Part shown: piece after piece, positions 44,976 to 56,385 of the stretch
Position numbering within the stretch: position 1 is the stretch's first letter
How the letters are laid out: each line of letters opens with the position of its first letter
Source: Pseudomonadota bacterium
GTDB lineage: Bacteria; Pseudomonadota; Gammaproteobacteria; Burkholderiales; Burkholderiaceae_C
Assembly (NCBI GenBank): GCA_021846965.1
Contig: JAJZWA010000008.1
Location: 1-64,000 of the forward strand
DNA: 64,000 bases
Direction: 5' to 3'
The notes under the pieces: generated by a model
What the model was told of the DNA's origin: nothing
The model's database searches: none
What the model saw: the letters and a program-made list of their open reading frames with translations, nothing else
Made by a program: the position numbers and the translations under genes

Positions 44976-45004
44976 TTGTCATCGTGGCGTCACCGTTCGG
45001 TCAC
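44976..45004 (+). promoter_or_regulatory. Triple PhoB half-site array (Pho box) upstream of olsB-like gene
   Basis: TTGTCAT-CGTG-GCGTCAC-CGTT-CGGTCAC: three 7-bp units, each with a central GTCA, at an exact 11-bp period (GTCA at 44978, 44989, 45000). Two adjacent units make the standard 18-bp PhoB box, so this holds two overlapping boxes. It ends 56 bp before the ATG at 45061. Confidence 0.8.
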
Positions 45005-45060
45005 GGGATCGACATGTGGCTCTCGTATCGTGTTGCAACATCTGACACGAGGAGCATGGC

Positions 45061-45843: not shown

Positions 45844-45888
45844 GCGCGTCCCGGGGGCGTCCCGGGGGGCCGTCGCCTCAGGCGCTCA
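45838..45888. terminator. Inverted repeat and 11-bp duplication between convergent olsB and ppx
   Basis: GCCTGAG (45838-45844) and CTCAGGC (45877-45883) form a 7-bp inverted repeat that includes the TGA stops of both convergent genes; TGAGCGC/GCGCTCA offers an alternative pairing. Between them CGTCCCGGGGG is duplicated in tandem (45847-45868). Possibly a bidirectional terminator; no U tract is present. Confidence 0.4.
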
Positions 45889-47407
45889 CCTGGGCCTGCA
45901 GCTGCAACTGCAGGTCCAGGCCCACGCGCTGCCACTCGGAGACTTCCTGCTCCAGGCTGTACTGGGTGAGCGGCGAGGCGCGCAGCCAGCGCGCGGCGGC
46001 CTCGATGCGCGTGCCCGAAACCCCCTGCGTGCCCGCCACCAGGCGCAGCCCGCCGTCGAGTTCCACGTCGCGCCGGTTGCGCGCCAGCAGCACCGCCAGG
46101 CGCAGGGCCAGCAAGGCGCGCAGGTCGACGGGTGGTCCGGTGAGGGCTCCCAGCTTTTTCAGCTTGCCTCCATGGCACAGCAGCATCTCGGCCATCGCCG
46201 CCTGCTCGCTGCGCGAGAAGCCCGGCATGTCCGCGTTGCCCACGATGTAGGCCGAATGCTTGTGGTAGGCGCTGTGGGAAATCGACAGCCCCACCTCGTG
46301 CAGCTGGGCCGCCCAGCGCAGCGCCTGGCGGCGCTCGGGCGAGGCCTCGGGGTCGAGTTGCTCCAGCAATTGCAGCGCCAATTGTTCCACGCGCGCCGAC
46401 TGGCGCGTGTCGACCCCGTAGCGTTGCGTGAACTGCTGCACCGTGAGCTCGCGCATGTCCTGCTGCTGCTCGCGCCCCAGCAGGTCGTACAGCACGCCCA
46501 GGCGCAAGCCGGCGTCGGTGGCCTCCATGTCCCGCAGGCCCAGTTCCTCGAACACCGCCAGCATGATGGCCAGGCCGCCGGCGGCCACCGGCAGGCGGTC
46601 CGGCTTGAGCCCGGGCATGCGCAGGGTGCTCAGGTCCTCGGCCTGCACGTAGATCTTGCGCAGACGGCGCAGCCCGGCGCGGGTGATGCCCAGCGTGGCG
46701 CCCGAATCATTGAGCTGGCTGCCCACGAGAATGTCCGCCAGCGCGCGCGCCGTGCCGCTGGAGCCCACCGCGGAGGCCCAGCCGGTCTTGCGGAAATTGC
46801 GCGCGATGATCTGGATCTCGCGCCGAGCCGCCAGCTCGGCGGATTTCATGCGCTGCTCGTCGACCCGCCCGGCCGGAAAGAACTCGCGGGTCATGGACAC
46901 GCAGCCGATGTACAGCGACTCCATCATGCGCGGCTCCAGGCCGGAGCCGATGATGAACTCGGTGGAGCCGCCGCCGATGTCCACCACCAGGCGGTGCCCC
47001 GCCGACGGAGTCACCGAATGGGCTGCGCCGATGTAGACCAGGCGCGCCTCCTCGCGCCCCGCGATCACCTCGATCGGGAAGCCCAGCGCCTGCTGCGCAC
47101 GCTCCAGGAACACCGGGGCGTTCTTGGCCACGCGCACCGCGTTGGTGGCCACCGCGCGAACCCGCTCGGGGTGGAACTGGCGCAGCCGCTCGCCGAAACG
47201 GCGCAGCGTGGCCAGGGCCCGCTGCTGGCTCTCTTCGGTGAGGTTCTTGTTCTCGTCCAGTCCCGCGCCCAGGCGCACCGGCTCACGCAGGGAATCCAGG
47301 GGATAGATCTGCGCGCCGTGCGGGCTTTCCGCAGCCTTCCCCACCAGCATGCGAAAACTGTTGGAGCCTAGGTCGACGGCGGCGAGGTGCTGGACTTTCA
47401 GGGACAT
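45878..47407 (-). CDS. ppx: Exopolyphosphatase
   Basis: A 509-residue Ppx/GppA phosphatase. The actin-like ATP-type site opens with HLAAVDLGSNSFRML, then VRAVATNAVRVAKN, VIAGREEARLVYIG and LVVDIGGGSTEFIIG. The C-terminal HD-like helical region (ALRWAAQLHEVGLSISHSAYHKHSAYI) is present as in E. coli Ppx. It releases phosphate from polyphosphate chains and possibly acts on pppGpp. It is divergent from ppk with back-to-back Pho boxes between them. No ribosome site precedes the ATG, and the Pho-type promoter would start transcription close to it, so the mRNA may be nearly leaderless. Confidence 0.95.
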   Translation of the reverse strand: MSLKVQHLAAVDLGSNSFRMLVGKAAESPHGAQIYPLDSLREPVRLGAGLDENKNLTEESQQRALATLRRFGERLRQFHPERVRAVATNAVRVAKNAPVFLERAQQALGFPIEVIAGREEARLVYIGAAHSVTPSAGHRLVVDIGGGSTEFIIGSGLEPRMMESLYIGCVSMTREFFPAGRVDEQRMKSAELAARREIQIIARNFRKTGWASAVGSSGTARALADILVGSQLNDSGATLGITRAGLRRLRKIYVQAEDLSTLRMPGLKPDRLPVAAGGLAIMLAVFEELGLRDMEATDAGLRLGVLYDLLGREQQQDMRELTVQQFTQRYGVDTRQSARVEQLALQLLEQLDPEASPERRQALRWAAQLHEVGLSISHSAYHKHSAYIVGNADMPGFSRSEQAAMAEMLLCHGGKLKKLGALTGPPVDLRALLALRLAVLLARNRRDVELDGGLRLVAGTQGVSGTRIEAAARWLRASPLTQYSLEQEVSEWQRVGLDLQLQLQAQVSA

Positions 47408-47429: not shown

Positions 47430-47464
47430 ATGACACGCCCTTGACGATGTCATGTAGATTTCAC
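47430..47464. promoter_or_regulatory. Back-to-back PhoB boxes between ppx and ppk
   Basis: On the plus strand ATGTCAT-GTAG-ATTTCAC (47447-47464) faces ppk. On the minus strand TCGTCAA-GGGC-GTGTCAT (47447-47430) faces ppx. Each is an 18-bp 7-4-7 Pho box with TCA repeated at 11 bp, and the two share one base. This arrangement would let PhoB turn on polyphosphate synthesis and degradation together. Confidence 0.7.
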
Positions 47465-47529
47465 GGGAATGTGGGATCGTAAGCCTTTCGCGCCTCCGCC
47501 CGCGGCAGTTTCCCGTTTCCGGACTTTCC

Positions 47530-49620
47530 ATGGCCAAGCCAGCGCCTTCACCCCTGATCAACCGCGAAATCGGCATCCTGGCCTTCAACCGCCGCGTGCT
47601 GGCCCAGGCGCAGGACCCGGCCATCCCGCCTCTGGAACGTCTTCGCTACCTGTGCATCGTCGCGTCGAACCTGGACGAGTTCTTCGAGACCCGCGTGGCG
47701 CAGCTGCAGGACCTGCTGGAGCATGAGCCCGCGGCGATGACACCCGACGGCCTGCCGGTGGCCGAGGCGCTGCGCCTGATCGCGGACGAGGCGCACGCGC
47801 TGGTGGCCGAGAAATACCGGCTGCTGCAGCAGTCCATCTACCCCATGCTGCACGACGTGGGCGTGCGCTTCGTCACCAGCGGGGAATGGTCGCAGCGGCA
47901 GGAGCGCTGGGCCCGCGCCTACTTCGAGCGCGAGGTGCTGCCGGTGCTCACGCCCATCGGGCTCGACCCCGCGCACCCCTTTCCCAAGGTGCTCAACAAG
48001 AGCCTGAATTTCGCCGTCATGCTCGAGGGCACGGACGCCTTCGGCCGCAACGTCGACCTGGGCATCATCCAGGCGCCCAGGGCCCTGCCGCGGGTGCTGG
48101 AAATGCCCCGCGAACTGGTGGAGGACGACAAGCTGCACAGTTTCGTGCTGCTGTCCTCGCTGATGCAGGCCTACGCGGGGCACCTGTTCCCGGGCCTGAA
48201 GGTGCTGGGCGTGCACCAGTTCCGCGTCACCCGCAACAGCGAGCTGTTCGTGGACGACGACGAGATCACCAATCTGCGCACGGCCCTGCAGGGCGAGCTG
48301 CGCGCGCGCCACTACGGCGATGCCGTGCGCCTGGAGGTCACCGCCGCCTGCCCGCAGCCCCTGCTCGAGCGCCTGATGCGCGAGAACGGCCTGCACGCGC
48401 GCGACTGTTTCCGCGTCGACGGTCCGGTCAACCTGGCGCGCCTGCAGGCGATCATCGACATGCTGCCGCAGTCGCGCCTGACCTACCCCCCGCATCTGCC
48501 GGCTTCCCTGCCCGGCTGGCCCGGCGCGGAGCCCGAGCTGTTCGAGCGCATCCGCGCCGGCAACGTGCTGCTGCACCACCCCTACGACAGCTTCGCCCCG
48601 GTGGTCGACCTGGTGCGCACCGCCGCGCGCGACCCGCAGGTGCTGGCCATCAAGCAGACCATCTACCGCGCCGGGCATACCTCCGAGCTGATGGAGGCCC
48701 TGATCGAGGCGGCACGCAACGGCAAGGAAGTCACCGTCGTGCTGGAGCTGATGGCCCGCCTGGACGAGGAGACCAACATCAACTGGGCGGCGCGCCTGGA
48801 GGCCGAGGGCGCGCATGTGGTCTACGGCGTCGTGGGCTTCAAGTGCCACGCCAAGATGCTCATGGTGGTGCGCCGCGAGCGCGTGGGTCGCCGCGCCGAA
48901 CAGCTGCGGCGCTACGTGCACCTGGGCACCGGCAACTACCACACCCGCACCGCCCGCCTGTACACCGATTTCGGGCTCATGACGGCCGACGAGGCCATCT
49001 GCGCCGACGTCAACCAGGTGTTCCTGGAAATCACCGGCTCCTCCAAGTTCGCTCCGCTGCGCCGCCTGTGGCAATCGCCGTTCTCGCTGCTGGACAAGCT
49101 GATTCGCGCCATCCGCCACGAGGCGCGCCTGGCCCGTGCCGGCAAGACGGCGCGCATCTGGGCACGGGTGAACGCCCTGGTCGAGCCCACGGTGATCGGC
49201 GAGCTGTACAAGGCGGCACGCGCCGGCGTGGAAATCCGCCTGCTGGTGCGCGGGCCCTGCATGCTGCGTCCAGGCATCGCCGGCCTGTCGGAGAACATCC
49301 GCGTGCGCTCGGTGATCGGGCGCTTCCTGGAGCACTCGCGGGTGTTCTATTTCCACAACGACGGCGCCGAGGACGTCTGGATCTCCTCGGCCGACTGGAT
49401 GGAGCGCAACCTGTTCCGCCGCGTCGAGATCGCCGCCCCCATCCTGGACCCCGAGGCCAAGGCCAAGGTGATCCTCGAGGGCCTGCGCGTGCACTGGCTC
49501 AACCCCGGCAACGCCTGGGACATGGACAGCGCCGGCAACTGGCGCCGTGCCCGCGGCTGGCACACCGGCCGCAGCAGTCACCAGGTGCTGATCGACTCGC
49601 GCAACCCCGAGGCTGGCTGA
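47530..49620 (+). CDS. ppk: Polyphosphate kinase 1
   Basis: A 696-residue PPK1. The N-terminal NREIGILAFNRRVLAQAQD, the HKD-like catalytic segment VVYGVVGFKCHAKMLMVV with the phosphorylated His, RRYVHLGTGNYHTRTARLYTDFGL, and the second HKD-like region RVFYFHNDGAEDVWISSADWMERNL are all present. Full length for the family. It reversibly transfers the ATP gamma phosphate to polyphosphate. Expression is probably PhoB-controlled through the upstream box. Confidence 0.98.
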   Translation: MAKPAPSPLINREIGILAFNRRVLAQAQDPAIPPLERLRYLCIVASNLDEFFETRVAQLQDLLEHEPAAMTPDGLPVAEALRLIADEAHALVAEKYRLLQQSIYPMLHDVGVRFVTSGEWSQRQERWARAYFEREVLPVLTPIGLDPAHPFPKVLNKSLNFAVMLEGTDAFGRNVDLGIIQAPRALPRVLEMPRELVEDDKLHSFVLLSSLMQAYAGHLFPGLKVLGVHQFRVTRNSELFVDDDEITNLRTALQGELRARHYGDAVRLEVTAACPQPLLERLMRENGLHARDCFRVDGPVNLARLQAIIDMLPQSRLTYPPHLPASLPGWPGAEPELFERIRAGNVLLHHPYDSFAPVVDLVRTAARDPQVLAIKQTIYRAGHTSELMEALIEAARNGKEVTVVLELMARLDEETNINWAARLEAEGAHVVYGVVGFKCHAKMLMVVRRERVGRRAEQLRRYVHLGTGNYHTRTARLYTDFGLMTADEAICADVNQVFLEITGSSKFAPLRRLWQSPFSLLDKLIRAIRHEARLARAGKTARIWARVNALVEPTVIGELYKAARAGVEIRLLVRGPCMLRPGIAGLSENIRVRSVIGRFLEHSRVFYFHNDGAEDVWISSADWMERNLFRRVEIAAPILDPEAKAKVILEGLRVHWLNPGNAWDMDSAGNWRRARGWHTGRSSHQVLIDSRNPEAG

Positions 49621-49629
49621 GCGCCGGCC

Positions 49630-50979
49630 TCAGCCCTGTTCGACCACGGGTTCCTGCGGCGCGAGCGCCTGCGGCAGCACGATGCGCTGCGCAGGGAAGC
49701 GGGCGCTGAAGGTGCTGCCCTCGCCCAGCTGGCTGGAAATACGCAGTTCCGCCTGATGGCGCAACAGCGCATGCTTGACGATGGCCAGGCCCAGGCCGGT
49801 GCCGCCCGACTCGCGCGAACGCCCGCGGTCCACGCGGTAGAAGCGCTCGGTCAGGCGCGGAATGTGCTCGGCGGCGATGCCGATGCCGTCATCGCTGACG
49901 CTGAACTCGCCCACCGCATCGCCCAGTCCGGTGTCGAGCACACGCCAGCGGATCTGGATCAGGCCGCCCTCGGGGGTGTAGCGCACGGCGTTGCTCACCA
50001 GATTGCCGAAGGCGCTGGAGAGTTCGCCACCGGCGCCGCGCAGCTTGCTCAGGTCGGCCTCGGCCTCGATGCGGTGACGCCCACCCGACAGCGCACGCGC
50101 ATCGGCTGCCAGGCGCGCCACCATATTGGGCATGTCCAGCAGTTCCTCGGCGGGCTGGTGCGGGTCGCCTTCCAGGTGGGCCAGGGTCAGCAGGTCCTCC
50201 ACCAGATGGCGCATGCGATCGCTCTGCTGCTGCATCAGCGCCAGCATCCTCTCGCGCTCCTCGGCGGAGAAATCCAGGCTGCGCAGGGTCTCGACGAAAC
50301 CCGCGATCACCGTCAGGGGGGTCTTGATCTCGTGCGAGACGTTGGCGACGAAATCGCGGCGCATCGCCTCGGTGCGCTCGATCTGGGTGACGTCACGCGA
50401 CAGCAGCAGGCGATCCCCCTCGCCGTAGGGAATCACCTGCACGCTCAGCAGCAGGTTGCCCTGGCTGCCGCTGCGGCGCATCAGCAGGGGCTCGGCGAAC
50501 TGGCGTCCCGCCAGGTAGGCGACGAATTCCGGGTTGCGGATCAGGTGCACCGCGTGCTGGCGCATGTCGCGCCGCGGGTCGAGCCCGAAATGCCCGGCGG
50601 CGGTGGCGTTGCACCAGTCGATCTGGCCCTGTTCGTCGATCAGCATCACCCCGTTGGGGGAGGCCTGCAAGGCCTCGATGAACCGCGCCAGCTTGGTCTC
50701 CTCGCGCTGCACGCGGCTTTGCCACAGGCGCAGCTGGCGCGCGCTGCGGTAGAACACCTCGCCCCAGGCGCCAAAGGAGGCCGGAATGCTGTCGCGCTGC
50801 GGAAAGCGCAGCCAGGCCAGCAGGCGGGTGCGGGCGAGGGTGTCGAAGGCCACCACGCCCAGCGCGATGACGCAGGCCAGCGCCAGGCCAGCGCTCTCGC
50901 CCAGCCAGTGCGCGGCCAGGGAGCCGGCCAGCACCATCGCGGCCACGAGCAGGGCCAGGCGGAGCATCACGGAACGCAT
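49630..50979 (-). CDS. phoR: Phosphate regulon sensor histidine kinase PhoR
   Basis: A 449-residue histidine kinase. Two N-terminal helices (MLRLALLVAAMVLAGSLAAHWL; AGLALACVIALGVVAFDTLA) precede a PAS domain (FIEALQASPNGVMLIDEQGQIDWCNATA). The H-box FVANVSHEIKTPLTVIAGF, N-box FGNLVSNAVRYTP and glycine boxes SDDGIGIAAEHIPRLTERFYRVDRGRSRESGGTGLGLAIVKH follow. It lacks a large periplasmic sensor, as expected for PhoR, which reads phosphate through Pst and PhoU. The start at 50979 lies 16 bp after phoB; MLRLA at 50967 is an alternative. Confidence 0.95.
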   Translation of the reverse strand: MRSVMLRLALLVAAMVLAGSLAAHWLGESAGLALACVIALGVVAFDTLARTRLLAWLRFPQRDSIPASFGAWGEVFYRSARQLRLWQSRVQREETKLARFIEALQASPNGVMLIDEQGQIDWCNATAAGHFGLDPRRDMRQHAVHLIRNPEFVAYLAGRQFAEPLLMRRSGSQGNLLLSVQVIPYGEGDRLLLSRDVTQIERTEAMRRDFVANVSHEIKTPLTVIAGFVETLRSLDFSAEERERMLALMQQQSDRMRHLVEDLLTLAHLEGDPHQPAEELLDMPNMVARLAADARALSGGRHRIEAEADLSKLRGAGGELSSAFGNLVSNAVRYTPEGGLIQIRWRVLDTGLGDAVGEFSVSDDGIGIAAEHIPRLTERFYRVDRGRSRESGGTGLGLAIVKHALLRHQAELRISSQLGEGSTFSARFPAQRIVLPQALAPQEPVVEQG

Positions 50980-50995
50980 GGGCGGTGCCCGATGC

Positions 50996-51718
50996 TCAGC
51001 CGGCGGCGGTGGCGCCCTGGCGTTGCGTGAACCGGTAACCCGCTCCACGCACCGTCTCGACCAGCTCGGAACAATTCGCCGGAGCCAGCGCCTCACGCAG
51101 GCGCTTGATGTGCACGTCCACGGTGCGCTCCTCGATGAACACGTGGTCGCCCCACACCTTGTCGAGCAATGCCCCGCGGCTGTGCACCCGCTCCGGGTGG
51201 GTCATCATGAAGTGCAGCAGCTTGAACTCGGTGGGCCCCAGGCGCAGCTCCTTCTCCGCGCCGTCGGGCCCGGTGTAGGTGACGCGGCGGGTTCCCGGAT
51301 CGACGGCCAGCGCGCCCGCGCGCACCGGCTCGTCGGTGAGCTGCGGCGAGCGCCGACGCAGCACCGCGCGGATGCGCGCCAGCAGTTCCTTGGGAGAGAA
51401 GGGCTTGGTGATGTAGTCGTCGGCCCCGGCATCGAGCCCGGCGATGGTGTCGGTCTCCTCGCTGCGCGCCGTCAGCAGGATCATCGGGATGCCCCGCGTG
51501 CGCGCGCCCTGGCGCAGCTCGCGCAGCAAGGCCACGCCGGACATGCCGGGCAGCATCCAGTCCACGAGCATCACGTCGGGGAGCACGTCGCGGATCAGGC
51601 GCAAGGCCTCCTCGGCGCTTCCCGCCACGATGGGGCAGTGGCCGGCGTGCCGCAGGTTCACCGCGAGCAATTCGGCGATCGCGGGCTCGTCTTCGACAAT
51701 CAGGATGTTGCTGGGCAT
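50996..51718 (-). CDS. phoB: Phosphate regulon response regulator PhoB
   Basis: A 240-residue OmpR-type regulator. The receiver domain has IVEDEPAIAELLAVNL, the phospho-acceptor Asp in VMLVDWMLPGMSG and the Lys in GADDYITKPFSPKELLARI. The C-terminal winged helix (ELRLGPTEFKLLHFMMTHPERVHSRGALLDKVWG and RTVDVHIKRLREAL) matches PhoB recognition sequences. It binds the Pho boxes predicted upstream of pstS, ppk, ppx and olsB. It follows phoU by 52 bp. Confidence 0.97.
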   Translation of the reverse strand: MPSNILIVEDEPAIAELLAVNLRHAGHCPIVAGSAEEALRLIRDVLPDVMLVDWMLPGMSGVALLRELRQGARTRGIPMILLTARSEETDTIAGLDAGADDYITKPFSPKELLARIRAVLRRRSPQLTDEPVRAGALAVDPGTRRVTYTGPDGAEKELRLGPTEFKLLHFMMTHPERVHSRGALLDKVWGDHVFIEERTVDVHIKRLREALAPANCSELVETVRGAGYRFTQRQGATAAG

Positions 51719-51770: not shown

Positions 51771-52472
51771 TCAGAGGGTTCCCGCCACCTCGTTGAAGGC
51801 TTCCTTGTTGTGTCGCACGTCGGTGCCGCGCACCACGTAGATCACGAACTCGGCGATGTTCTTGGCGTGGTCGCCGATGCGCTCGATGGCCTTGGCGATG
51901 AACACCATGTCCAGACTGGCGGAGATGTTGCGCGGGTCCTCCATCACGTAGGTGATGAGCTTGCGCATGAAGGAGTCGAATTCGGCGTCGATGGCGCTGT
52001 CGGCGGTGACGATGTCCACAGCGGCCCGCTCGTCCAGGCGCGCGAAGGCGTCCAGGGCCTTGCGGATCTGCGCCACCGCGAGGTCGGATTCGCGGATGAT
52101 CTCGTTGAAGGAGATGCTCAGGTTGGCCCCGGCCTCGACCAGGTCGCGCGCCATGCGGGCGATGCGGTCGGCCTCGTCGCCCACGCGTTCCAGGTTGGTG
52201 ATGGTCTTGGAGATGGCCAGCATCAGGCGCAGGTCGCGCGCGGTGGGCTGGCGCTTGGCGATGATCTGCGCCACGTCGGCGTCGATCTCCACCTCGAGCT
52301 GGTTCACGCGCTTCTCGTTGAGCATCACCCCGCGCGCGGCCTCGGCATCGAAGTGGCGCAGCGCGTACACCGCCTGCGCGATCTGGGATTCGACCAGGCC
52401 GCCCATCTCCAGCACGCGGGTGGTGATGGCACTGATCTCGGCGTCGAACTGGGTGGAAAGGTGCTTGTCCAT
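51771..52472 (-). CDS. phoU: Phosphate signalling protein PhoU
   Basis: A 233-residue all-helical protein with two three-helix bundles. Metal-binding motifs are visible as NLERVGDEADRIARMA and AIERIGDHAKNIAEFVIYVV, the paired E/DxxxD motifs of PhoU. It links the Pst transporter to PhoR and represses the regulon when phosphate is plentiful. It sits between pstB and phoB, 22 bp after pstB, the usual arrangement in Burkholderiales. Confidence 0.97.
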   Translation of the reverse strand: MDKHLSTQFDAEISAITTRVLEMGGLVESQIAQAVYALRHFDAEAARGVMLNEKRVNQLEVEIDADVAQIIAKRQPTARDLRLMLAISKTITNLERVGDEADRIARMARDLVEAGANLSISFNEIIRESDLAVAQIRKALDAFARLDERAAVDIVTADSAIDAEFDSFMRKLITYVMEDPRNISASLDMVFIAKAIERIGDHAKNIAEFVIYVVRGTDVRHNKEAFNEVAGTL

Positions 52473-55216: not shown

Positions 55217-56299
55217 TTACTGGATCTTCGCGATCTGGGCCTTGCTCAGTTCCTGGATGTGCTTGGGCAGCGCGATGAATCGCACGGCTTCCAGGTACTT
55301 GGAGGCATTGCCACCGTCGCTTTCCACCGCCCAGCCCAGGAATTCCTTGATGGCCTTGGCCTGCTCGGCGTTGGCCTGCTTGGCGTTGACGATCGCGTAC
55401 TCGTAGTTGATGATGGGGTAGGACTCCGCACCCGGGGCGAACACCAGGCTCAGGCGCTCGTCGGCCGGGGTCTTGGCGATCAGGCCGTCGGCGGCGGCGC
55501 TGACGGTCTTCGGGGTCGGCAGCAGGAACTTGCCGGCGCGGTTCTTCAGCATGGCGGTGCCCAGGCCGGCCTTGGCGACCTGCTCATGGAAGCTCACGCC
55601 GATGTAGGCGATCGAGTACGGGGTCTGCTGGCAGGCCTGCACCATGCCGGGGTTGCCGTTGGCGCCCACGCCGCCCTGCACCGCAGGCCAGCTGATGGTG
55701 GTGCCGTAGCCCACGCTGCCGTTCCACTTGCTGTCGGAGAAGGACAGGTACTGGCTGAAAATGAAGGTGTCGCCACTGCCGTCGGTGCGGTGGATCGGCA
55801 CGATGGTGTGGTTGGGCAGCTTCACGCCGGGGTTCAGCGCCTTGATGGCGGCGTCATCCCAGTTCTTGATGGCGCCGCTGTAGATGCCGGCGAGCACCGG
55901 GCCGTCCAGCTTCAGGTGGTCCTTGTTCAGGCCCGGAACGTTGAAGTTGACGGTCTGCGCCGAGATGGCCAGGGGGATGTTCAGGATGCTGGGGTTCTGC
56001 TTGATCTGACCGTCGCTCATGTACGCGTCGGAGGCGCCGATCTGGGCCACGCCGGAGATCGCCTGCGCGATGCCGGTGCCGCTACCGGTGCCCTGGGTGG
56101 TGATGCGCACGCCGGGGTGGGCCTTGGTGTAGTCGGGCACCCACAGGTTGAACAGCGGGTACAGCAGCGTGGAGCCGGTCTCCAGCAGGGTCACGTCGGC
56201 AGCGTGGGCGGCCATCGGAGCCACGGAGGTGGCGACCACCAGGCCCGCGGTGGCGAGAGCCAGCTTGAGGTGTTGGCGGCGGGTCGTATCGATCGACAT
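55217..56299 (-). CDS. pstS: Phosphate-binding protein PstS
   Basis: A 360-residue periplasmic phosphate receptor. The signal peptide RRQHLKLALATAGLVVATSVAPMAAHAAD is followed by VTLLETGSTLLYPLFNLW and TTQGTGSGTGIAQAISG, the latter the phosphate-binding serine/threonine loop, and HRTDGSGDTFIFSQYLS with the second set of ligands. The start at 56299 is supported by AGGAG; the ORF start 18 codons upstream lacks one. First gene of pstSCAB-phoU-phoBR, behind a clear Pho box. Confidence 0.97.
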   Translation of the reverse strand: MSIDTTRRQHLKLALATAGLVVATSVAPMAAHAADVTLLETGSTLLYPLFNLWVPDYTKAHPGVRITTQGTGSGTGIAQAISGVAQIGASDAYMSDGQIKQNPSILNIPLAISAQTVNFNVPGLNKDHLKLDGPVLAGIYSGAIKNWDDAAIKALNPGVKLPNHTIVPIHRTDGSGDTFIFSQYLSFSDSKWNGSVGYGTTISWPAVQGGVGANGNPGMVQACQQTPYSIAYIGVSFHEQVAKAGLGTAMLKNRAGKFLLPTPKTVSAAADGLIAKTPADERLSLVFAPGAESYPIINYEYAIVNAKQANAEQAKAIKEFLGWAVESDGGNASKYLEAVRFIALPKHIQELSKAQIAKIQ

Positions 56300-56367
56300 G
56301 CAATTTTCTCCTGAGGTCATGCACCAGTGAGGGGCTGGTGTCTGGACGCTCATTGGATACGTGGATT

Positions 56368-56385
56368 ATGACATTTTGGTGAAAG
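56368..56385 (-). promoter_or_regulatory. PhoB box upstream of pstS
   Basis: On the minus strand CTTTCAC-CAAA-ATGTCAT, an 18-bp 7-4-7 direct repeat close to the PhoB consensus. A -10-like TATCCA follows about 8 bp downstream. It lies 69 bp before the pstS ATG and separates the pst operon from glmM. Confidence 0.88.

Follow-up and report, generated by a model that had tools for sequence, protein, structure and literature searches.

The window, i.e., the whole stretch of 64,000 nucleotides analyzed here, comes from a Thiomonas-like genome, the closest named locus being that of a Thiomonas MAG whose OlsB is 97% identical. It contains an olsB-like gene with a sixA-like gene on one side and ppx on the other; behind ppx come ppk, phoR, phoB, phoU and the pst genes. 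The relevant features are the following:

44976-44986, + strand: predicted PhoB half-site 1, TTGTCATCGTG (GTCA at 44978-44981)
44987-44997, + strand: predicted PhoB half-site 2, GCGTCACCGTT (GTCA at 44989-44992)
44998-45008, + strand: predicted PhoB half-site 3, CGGTCACGGGA (GTCA at 45000-45003)
45009-45019, + strand: predicted PhoB half-site 4, TCGACATGTGG (GACA at 45011-45014)
45026-45031, + strand: -10-like element TATCGT
45050-45054, + strand: Shine-Dalgarno-like AGGAG, 6 nt ahead of the ATG and kept in L045-L048
45061-45843, + strand: olsB-like gene, 260 aa, PF13444 acyltransferase
45878-47407, - strand: ppx, exopolyphosphatase (profile matches)
47430-47469, - strand: second Pho-box-like array before ppx, in the ppx/ppk divergent region (TACA/GTCA/GTCA in 11-bp phase, kept in L045-L048)
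47530-49620, + strand: ppk1, polyphosphate kinase (profile matches)
49630-51096, - strand: phoR, sensor kinase (TIGR02966, 410 bits, above the cut-off)
50996-51718, - strand: phoB, response regulator and presumed binder (TIGR02154, 320 bits, above the cut-off)
51771-52472, - strand: phoU (TIGR02135)
55217-56353, - strand: pstS (near relatives share 97-99% identity)
56369-56383, - strand: predicted two-half-site Pho box of pstS (TTCA at 56383-56380, GTCA at 56372-56369)

The product of the olsB-like gene covers the PF13444 domain in full length (117 bits, profile positions 1-102 of 102), and its best NCBIfam models are those of OlsB, namely NF052554 (164 bits, cut-off 350) and NF052555 (153 bits, cut-off 320). 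As the curated OlsB equivalog cut-offs are not passed, we named the protein OlsB-like; these two models, whose names end in RHOCB and BRUA, are probably tuned to the Rhodobacter and Brucella proteins. A search of solved structures returned marginal matches to autoinducer synthases alone (E about 0.04). The protein is 59% identical to that of Paraburkholderia L121, with which it shares the gene order sixA-olsB-ppx-ppk-phoR-phoB, and identity and gene order together indicate orthology to the olsB gene of Burkholderiales. The same order is present in Cupriavidus, Pandoraea and Ralstonia as well as in Paraburkholderia, while Comamonadaceae-type genomes differ. It could be argued that the enzyme makes a different aminolipid, e.g., a lysine lipid, or an N-acyl amino acid, equally under PhoB control, as its scores fall under the OlsB cut-offs, a weak match to the N-acyl amino acid synthase FeeM was found, and OlsB/PhoR control in Acinetobacter spans ornithine and lysine lipids (PMC11828411). 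We regard this as improbable, since the best named models are nevertheless those of OlsB, and the Paraburkholderia gene in the same order belongs to a genus in which P. xenovorans replaces phospholipids with ornithine lipids at low phosphate, a result given as 'data not shown' (PMC7814305).

Regarding the DNA upstream of the gene, the preliminary description had reported GTCA three times at a spacing of exactly 11 bp, which was confirmed at 44978, 44989 and 45000. It had also spoken of two overlapping Pho boxes: phased boxes are indeed present, but their count had to be revised, as a fourth predicted half-site, GACA, lies in phase at +11 behind the third GTCA, and a correctly spaced -10 follows. 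With this fourth half-site of the form G(T/A)CA, the region is therefore read as four predicted half-sites, forming a tandem of two Pho boxes and, in an overlapping register, a third one. Thus, direct-repeat half-sites of the TGTCA type at 11 bp, of which a Pho box takes at least two, are present as three exact GTCA and one GACA. The -10-like TATCGT begins 15 nt downstream of the start of half-site 4, that is, at the fixed distance of a promoter in which the box replaces the -35 element, and no -35 could be recognized for the olsB promoter apart from the half-sites themselves. The arrangement GTCA-N7-GTCA-N7-GTCA has one copy in the 64 kb, while it was absent from 100 dinucleotide shuffles, and the 3.66-Mb genome as a whole has no further copy (none in the reversed control). 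When four units were searched for in the genome allowing up to 2 mismatches, the olsB site was recovered with 1 mismatch and one other site with 2 (reversed control, one), making the olsB array the best four-site array of the genome.

Among the Thiomonas-like relatives, four near ones keep array, -10 and leader with hardly a change, while in the more distant L049 and L050 the half-sites and a -10 persist and nothing else does; the GACA of the window is replaced by GTCA in L049. An array with no more than 2 mismatches in its 16 bases was found upstream of olsB in 67 of 78 named Burkholderiales loci, as compared to 0 of 1560 shuffles, 0 of 78 reverse strands and 0 of 78 gene interiors; among the other pieces of these loci, 6 of 4726 had one. 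The columns of 72 arrays give the consensus GTCA(C/T) four times over, with near-random spacers that hold almost no information; the column of half-site 4 is G(T/A)CA (T 81%, A 19%), and the A....T of the -10, at offsets +49/+53, is 96% conserved. Moreover, the array accompanies olsB even in relatives with a different gene order. A matrix of the array, trained on loci from outside the Thiomonas group, scored the olsB site of the window at 34.6, the ppx site at 11.6, and the next unrelated place at -3.8.

A wider sample of the order, comprising 200 Burkholderiales genomes, yielded olsB relatives in 138, from 135 of which upstream DNA was analyzed. The strict array (up to 3 mismatches) was detected in 72 of these 135 regions, as opposed to 3 of 1350 shuffles; the -10 letters are present as well in 66 of the 72. 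With half-sites relaxed to KTMAY, array plus -10 (up to 3 mismatches) was found in 117 of 135 regions, against 2 of 2700 shuffles; given that this relaxation was picked after the sequences had been read, and that relatives are non-independent samples, the comparison with shuffles, and not the bare count, is the fair guide. A fifth upstream half-site is not conserved in this sample, the offset -11 being uninformative. Overall, the four-half-site array with its fixed -10 occurs in most of the about 40 families sampled, and the predicted half-sites upstream of olsB are under selection across Burkholderiales.

As for the regulator, PhoB and PhoR are encoded 4-6 kb away, and the recognition helix of PhoB is conserved, presumably being that of E. 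coli PhoB with one Arg changed to Lys. The pstS gene provides an internal control, as a two-unit box of the olsB half-site form is located upstream of it in the window and in most of 20 relatives. Most of these boxes have a -10 about 15 nt past the last unit, those of L136, L143 and L144 being weaker, and in the Thiomonas-like group the -10 spacing at pstS is less clear. Because the footprint extends over the order and the same half-site form is found at pstS, control of olsB by PhoB in the genome of the window is very likely. Two earlier proposals thus gain support: that olsB belongs to the Pho regulon, to which the footprint, the pstS half-site form and the proximity of phoB and phoR all point, and that an OlsB-like gene stands beside ppx/ppk/pst, in agreement with the profile matches and the conserved neighborhood.

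It is known that several bacteria respond to phosphate shortage by swapping phospholipids for phosphorus-free ornithine lipids. From the DNA at hand, we are confident that positions 44976-45031 represent a PhoB-activated olsB promoter, through which low phosphate would raise OlsB and, as a result, phosphorus-free ornithine lipid. In the proposed mechanism, when phosphate is short, PhoR would phosphorylate PhoB, dimers of which would then occupy the four direct-repeat half-sites, that is, two tandem Pho boxes in 11-bp steps on one face of the helix. Bound PhoB would stand in for the -35 element and bring RNA polymerase onto the -10 at 45026, so that olsB transcription would go up and more OlsB would N-acylate ornithine. 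A lyso-ornithine-lipid acyltransferase would finish the phosphorus-free ornithine lipid, and phosphate would be spared. No olsA gene was found next to olsB; the candidate for this last step is unlinked, at L013:1324-2067 (+ strand) on contig C5 of the window's own genome, directly behind a dihydroorotase-like gene. Its best NCBIfam match is OlsA (NF052552, 127 bits, below the cut-off of 300), and matrix scoring revealed no Pho array at this candidate.

Another reading, which we consider unlikely, is that PhoB binds but merely tops up a constitutively expressed olsB, as may hold in Burkholderia sensu stricto, where ornithine lipid is constitutive despite predicted Pho boxes (PMC7814305). The -10 TATCGT could, in principle, sustain basal transcription of olsB. 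However, constitutive expression does not fit well with a promoter in which only the half-sites are found where a -35 would be expected, and in relatives, too, the -35 position appears to be taken up by half-sites.

Far less probable is that the array is bound by another response regulator of the OmpR family, e.g., a copper/heavy-metal regulator, instead of PhoB. What can be said in its favor is that, at other places in the genome, exact GTCA pairs with the 11-bp step precede regulators of the cztR/silR/copR type and a CueO-like gene, from which it follows that the GTCA word, being common to other OmpR-family regulons, cannot by itself name the regulator. Nevertheless, the metal-regulator sites share an ATTACAT...TGTCAT motif that the olsB array does not have, while the half-sites of the latter match the form of the pstS boxes in the same genomes and lie within a phoBR cluster conserved in many genera. 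Based on the missing ATTACAT motif and the match to the pstS box, control of olsB by a copper-type regulator was rejected. A chance origin of the three GTCA words, which has nothing in its favor beyond the shortness of the word, is practically negligible and was ruled out by the footprint and its shuffles, by the uniqueness of the triplet in the genome, and by the phase and -10 spacing conserved across the order.

Exact TGTCA-N7-GTCA pairs of the window's own genome are located on contigs C89, C108, C121 and C12 (L005, L007, L010 and L002, respectively). Those of L007 and L010 precede near-identical copper/heavy-metal response regulators, the ATTACAT...TGTCAT motif is also present in L005, and the pair in L002 precedes the start of a CueO-like multicopper oxidase.

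The classical targets of PhoB in E. coli are phosphate uptake and phosphatases, whereas in the window the longest array belongs to a lipid gene, with four half-sites at olsB against one two-half-site box at pstS. The array resembles E. coli PhoB promoters in the TGTCA form of the half-site, in the tandem spacing of the repeats, and in the position of the box upstream of the -10 (PMC6194859). The link between PhoB and olsB has already been proposed (PMC7814305, PMC11828411). Pho boxes were predicted before olsB in all 43 genomes of Burkholderia sensu lato with a refined matrix (PMC7814305); that work concerns the same order, an orthologous gene and the same inferred regulator, but it describes a single 18-bp box, whereas the Thiomonas-like window has four phased half-sites and a fixed -10. 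In Acinetobacter baumannii, there is likewise a Pho box ahead of olsB, and none before olsA, with aminolipids being lost in a phoR deletion; this is a different order, the box described is a single one, and the passages considered here mention no neighboring ppx/ppk/pst (PMC11828411). Our search found no literature on ornithine lipids in Thiomonas. What is new here is the four-half-site geometry with its fixed -10, predicted across the order and longer than the pstS box.

This would provide a clean and testable promoter anatomy for phosphate-controlled remodeling of membrane lipids in a Thiomonas-like bacterium, which the footprint would extend to the larger part of an order that comprises environmental, plant-associated and clinical members. 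We put forward only tentatively, and with considerable doubt, the broader idea that the longest conserved PhoB array across Burkholderiales is that of olsB rather than that of pstS; lipid replacement may then rank with the most sensitive or the strongest responses of the Pho regulon, and be switched on before, or above, phosphate uptake. The four-site geometry predicts a measurable gap in strength or sensitivity between lipid remodeling and phosphate uptake.

Four-half-site arrays were also observed away from olsB, namely at L122:8530 (+), L064:6935 (+), L106:7577 (+) and L023:408 (-), the first two being located a short way upstream of ppk matches. In addition, in the Polynucleobacter loci L120 and L123 it is the minus-strand DNA ahead of ppx, and not the region ahead of olsB, that has the best array score, which hints at a promoter that is shifted or shared.
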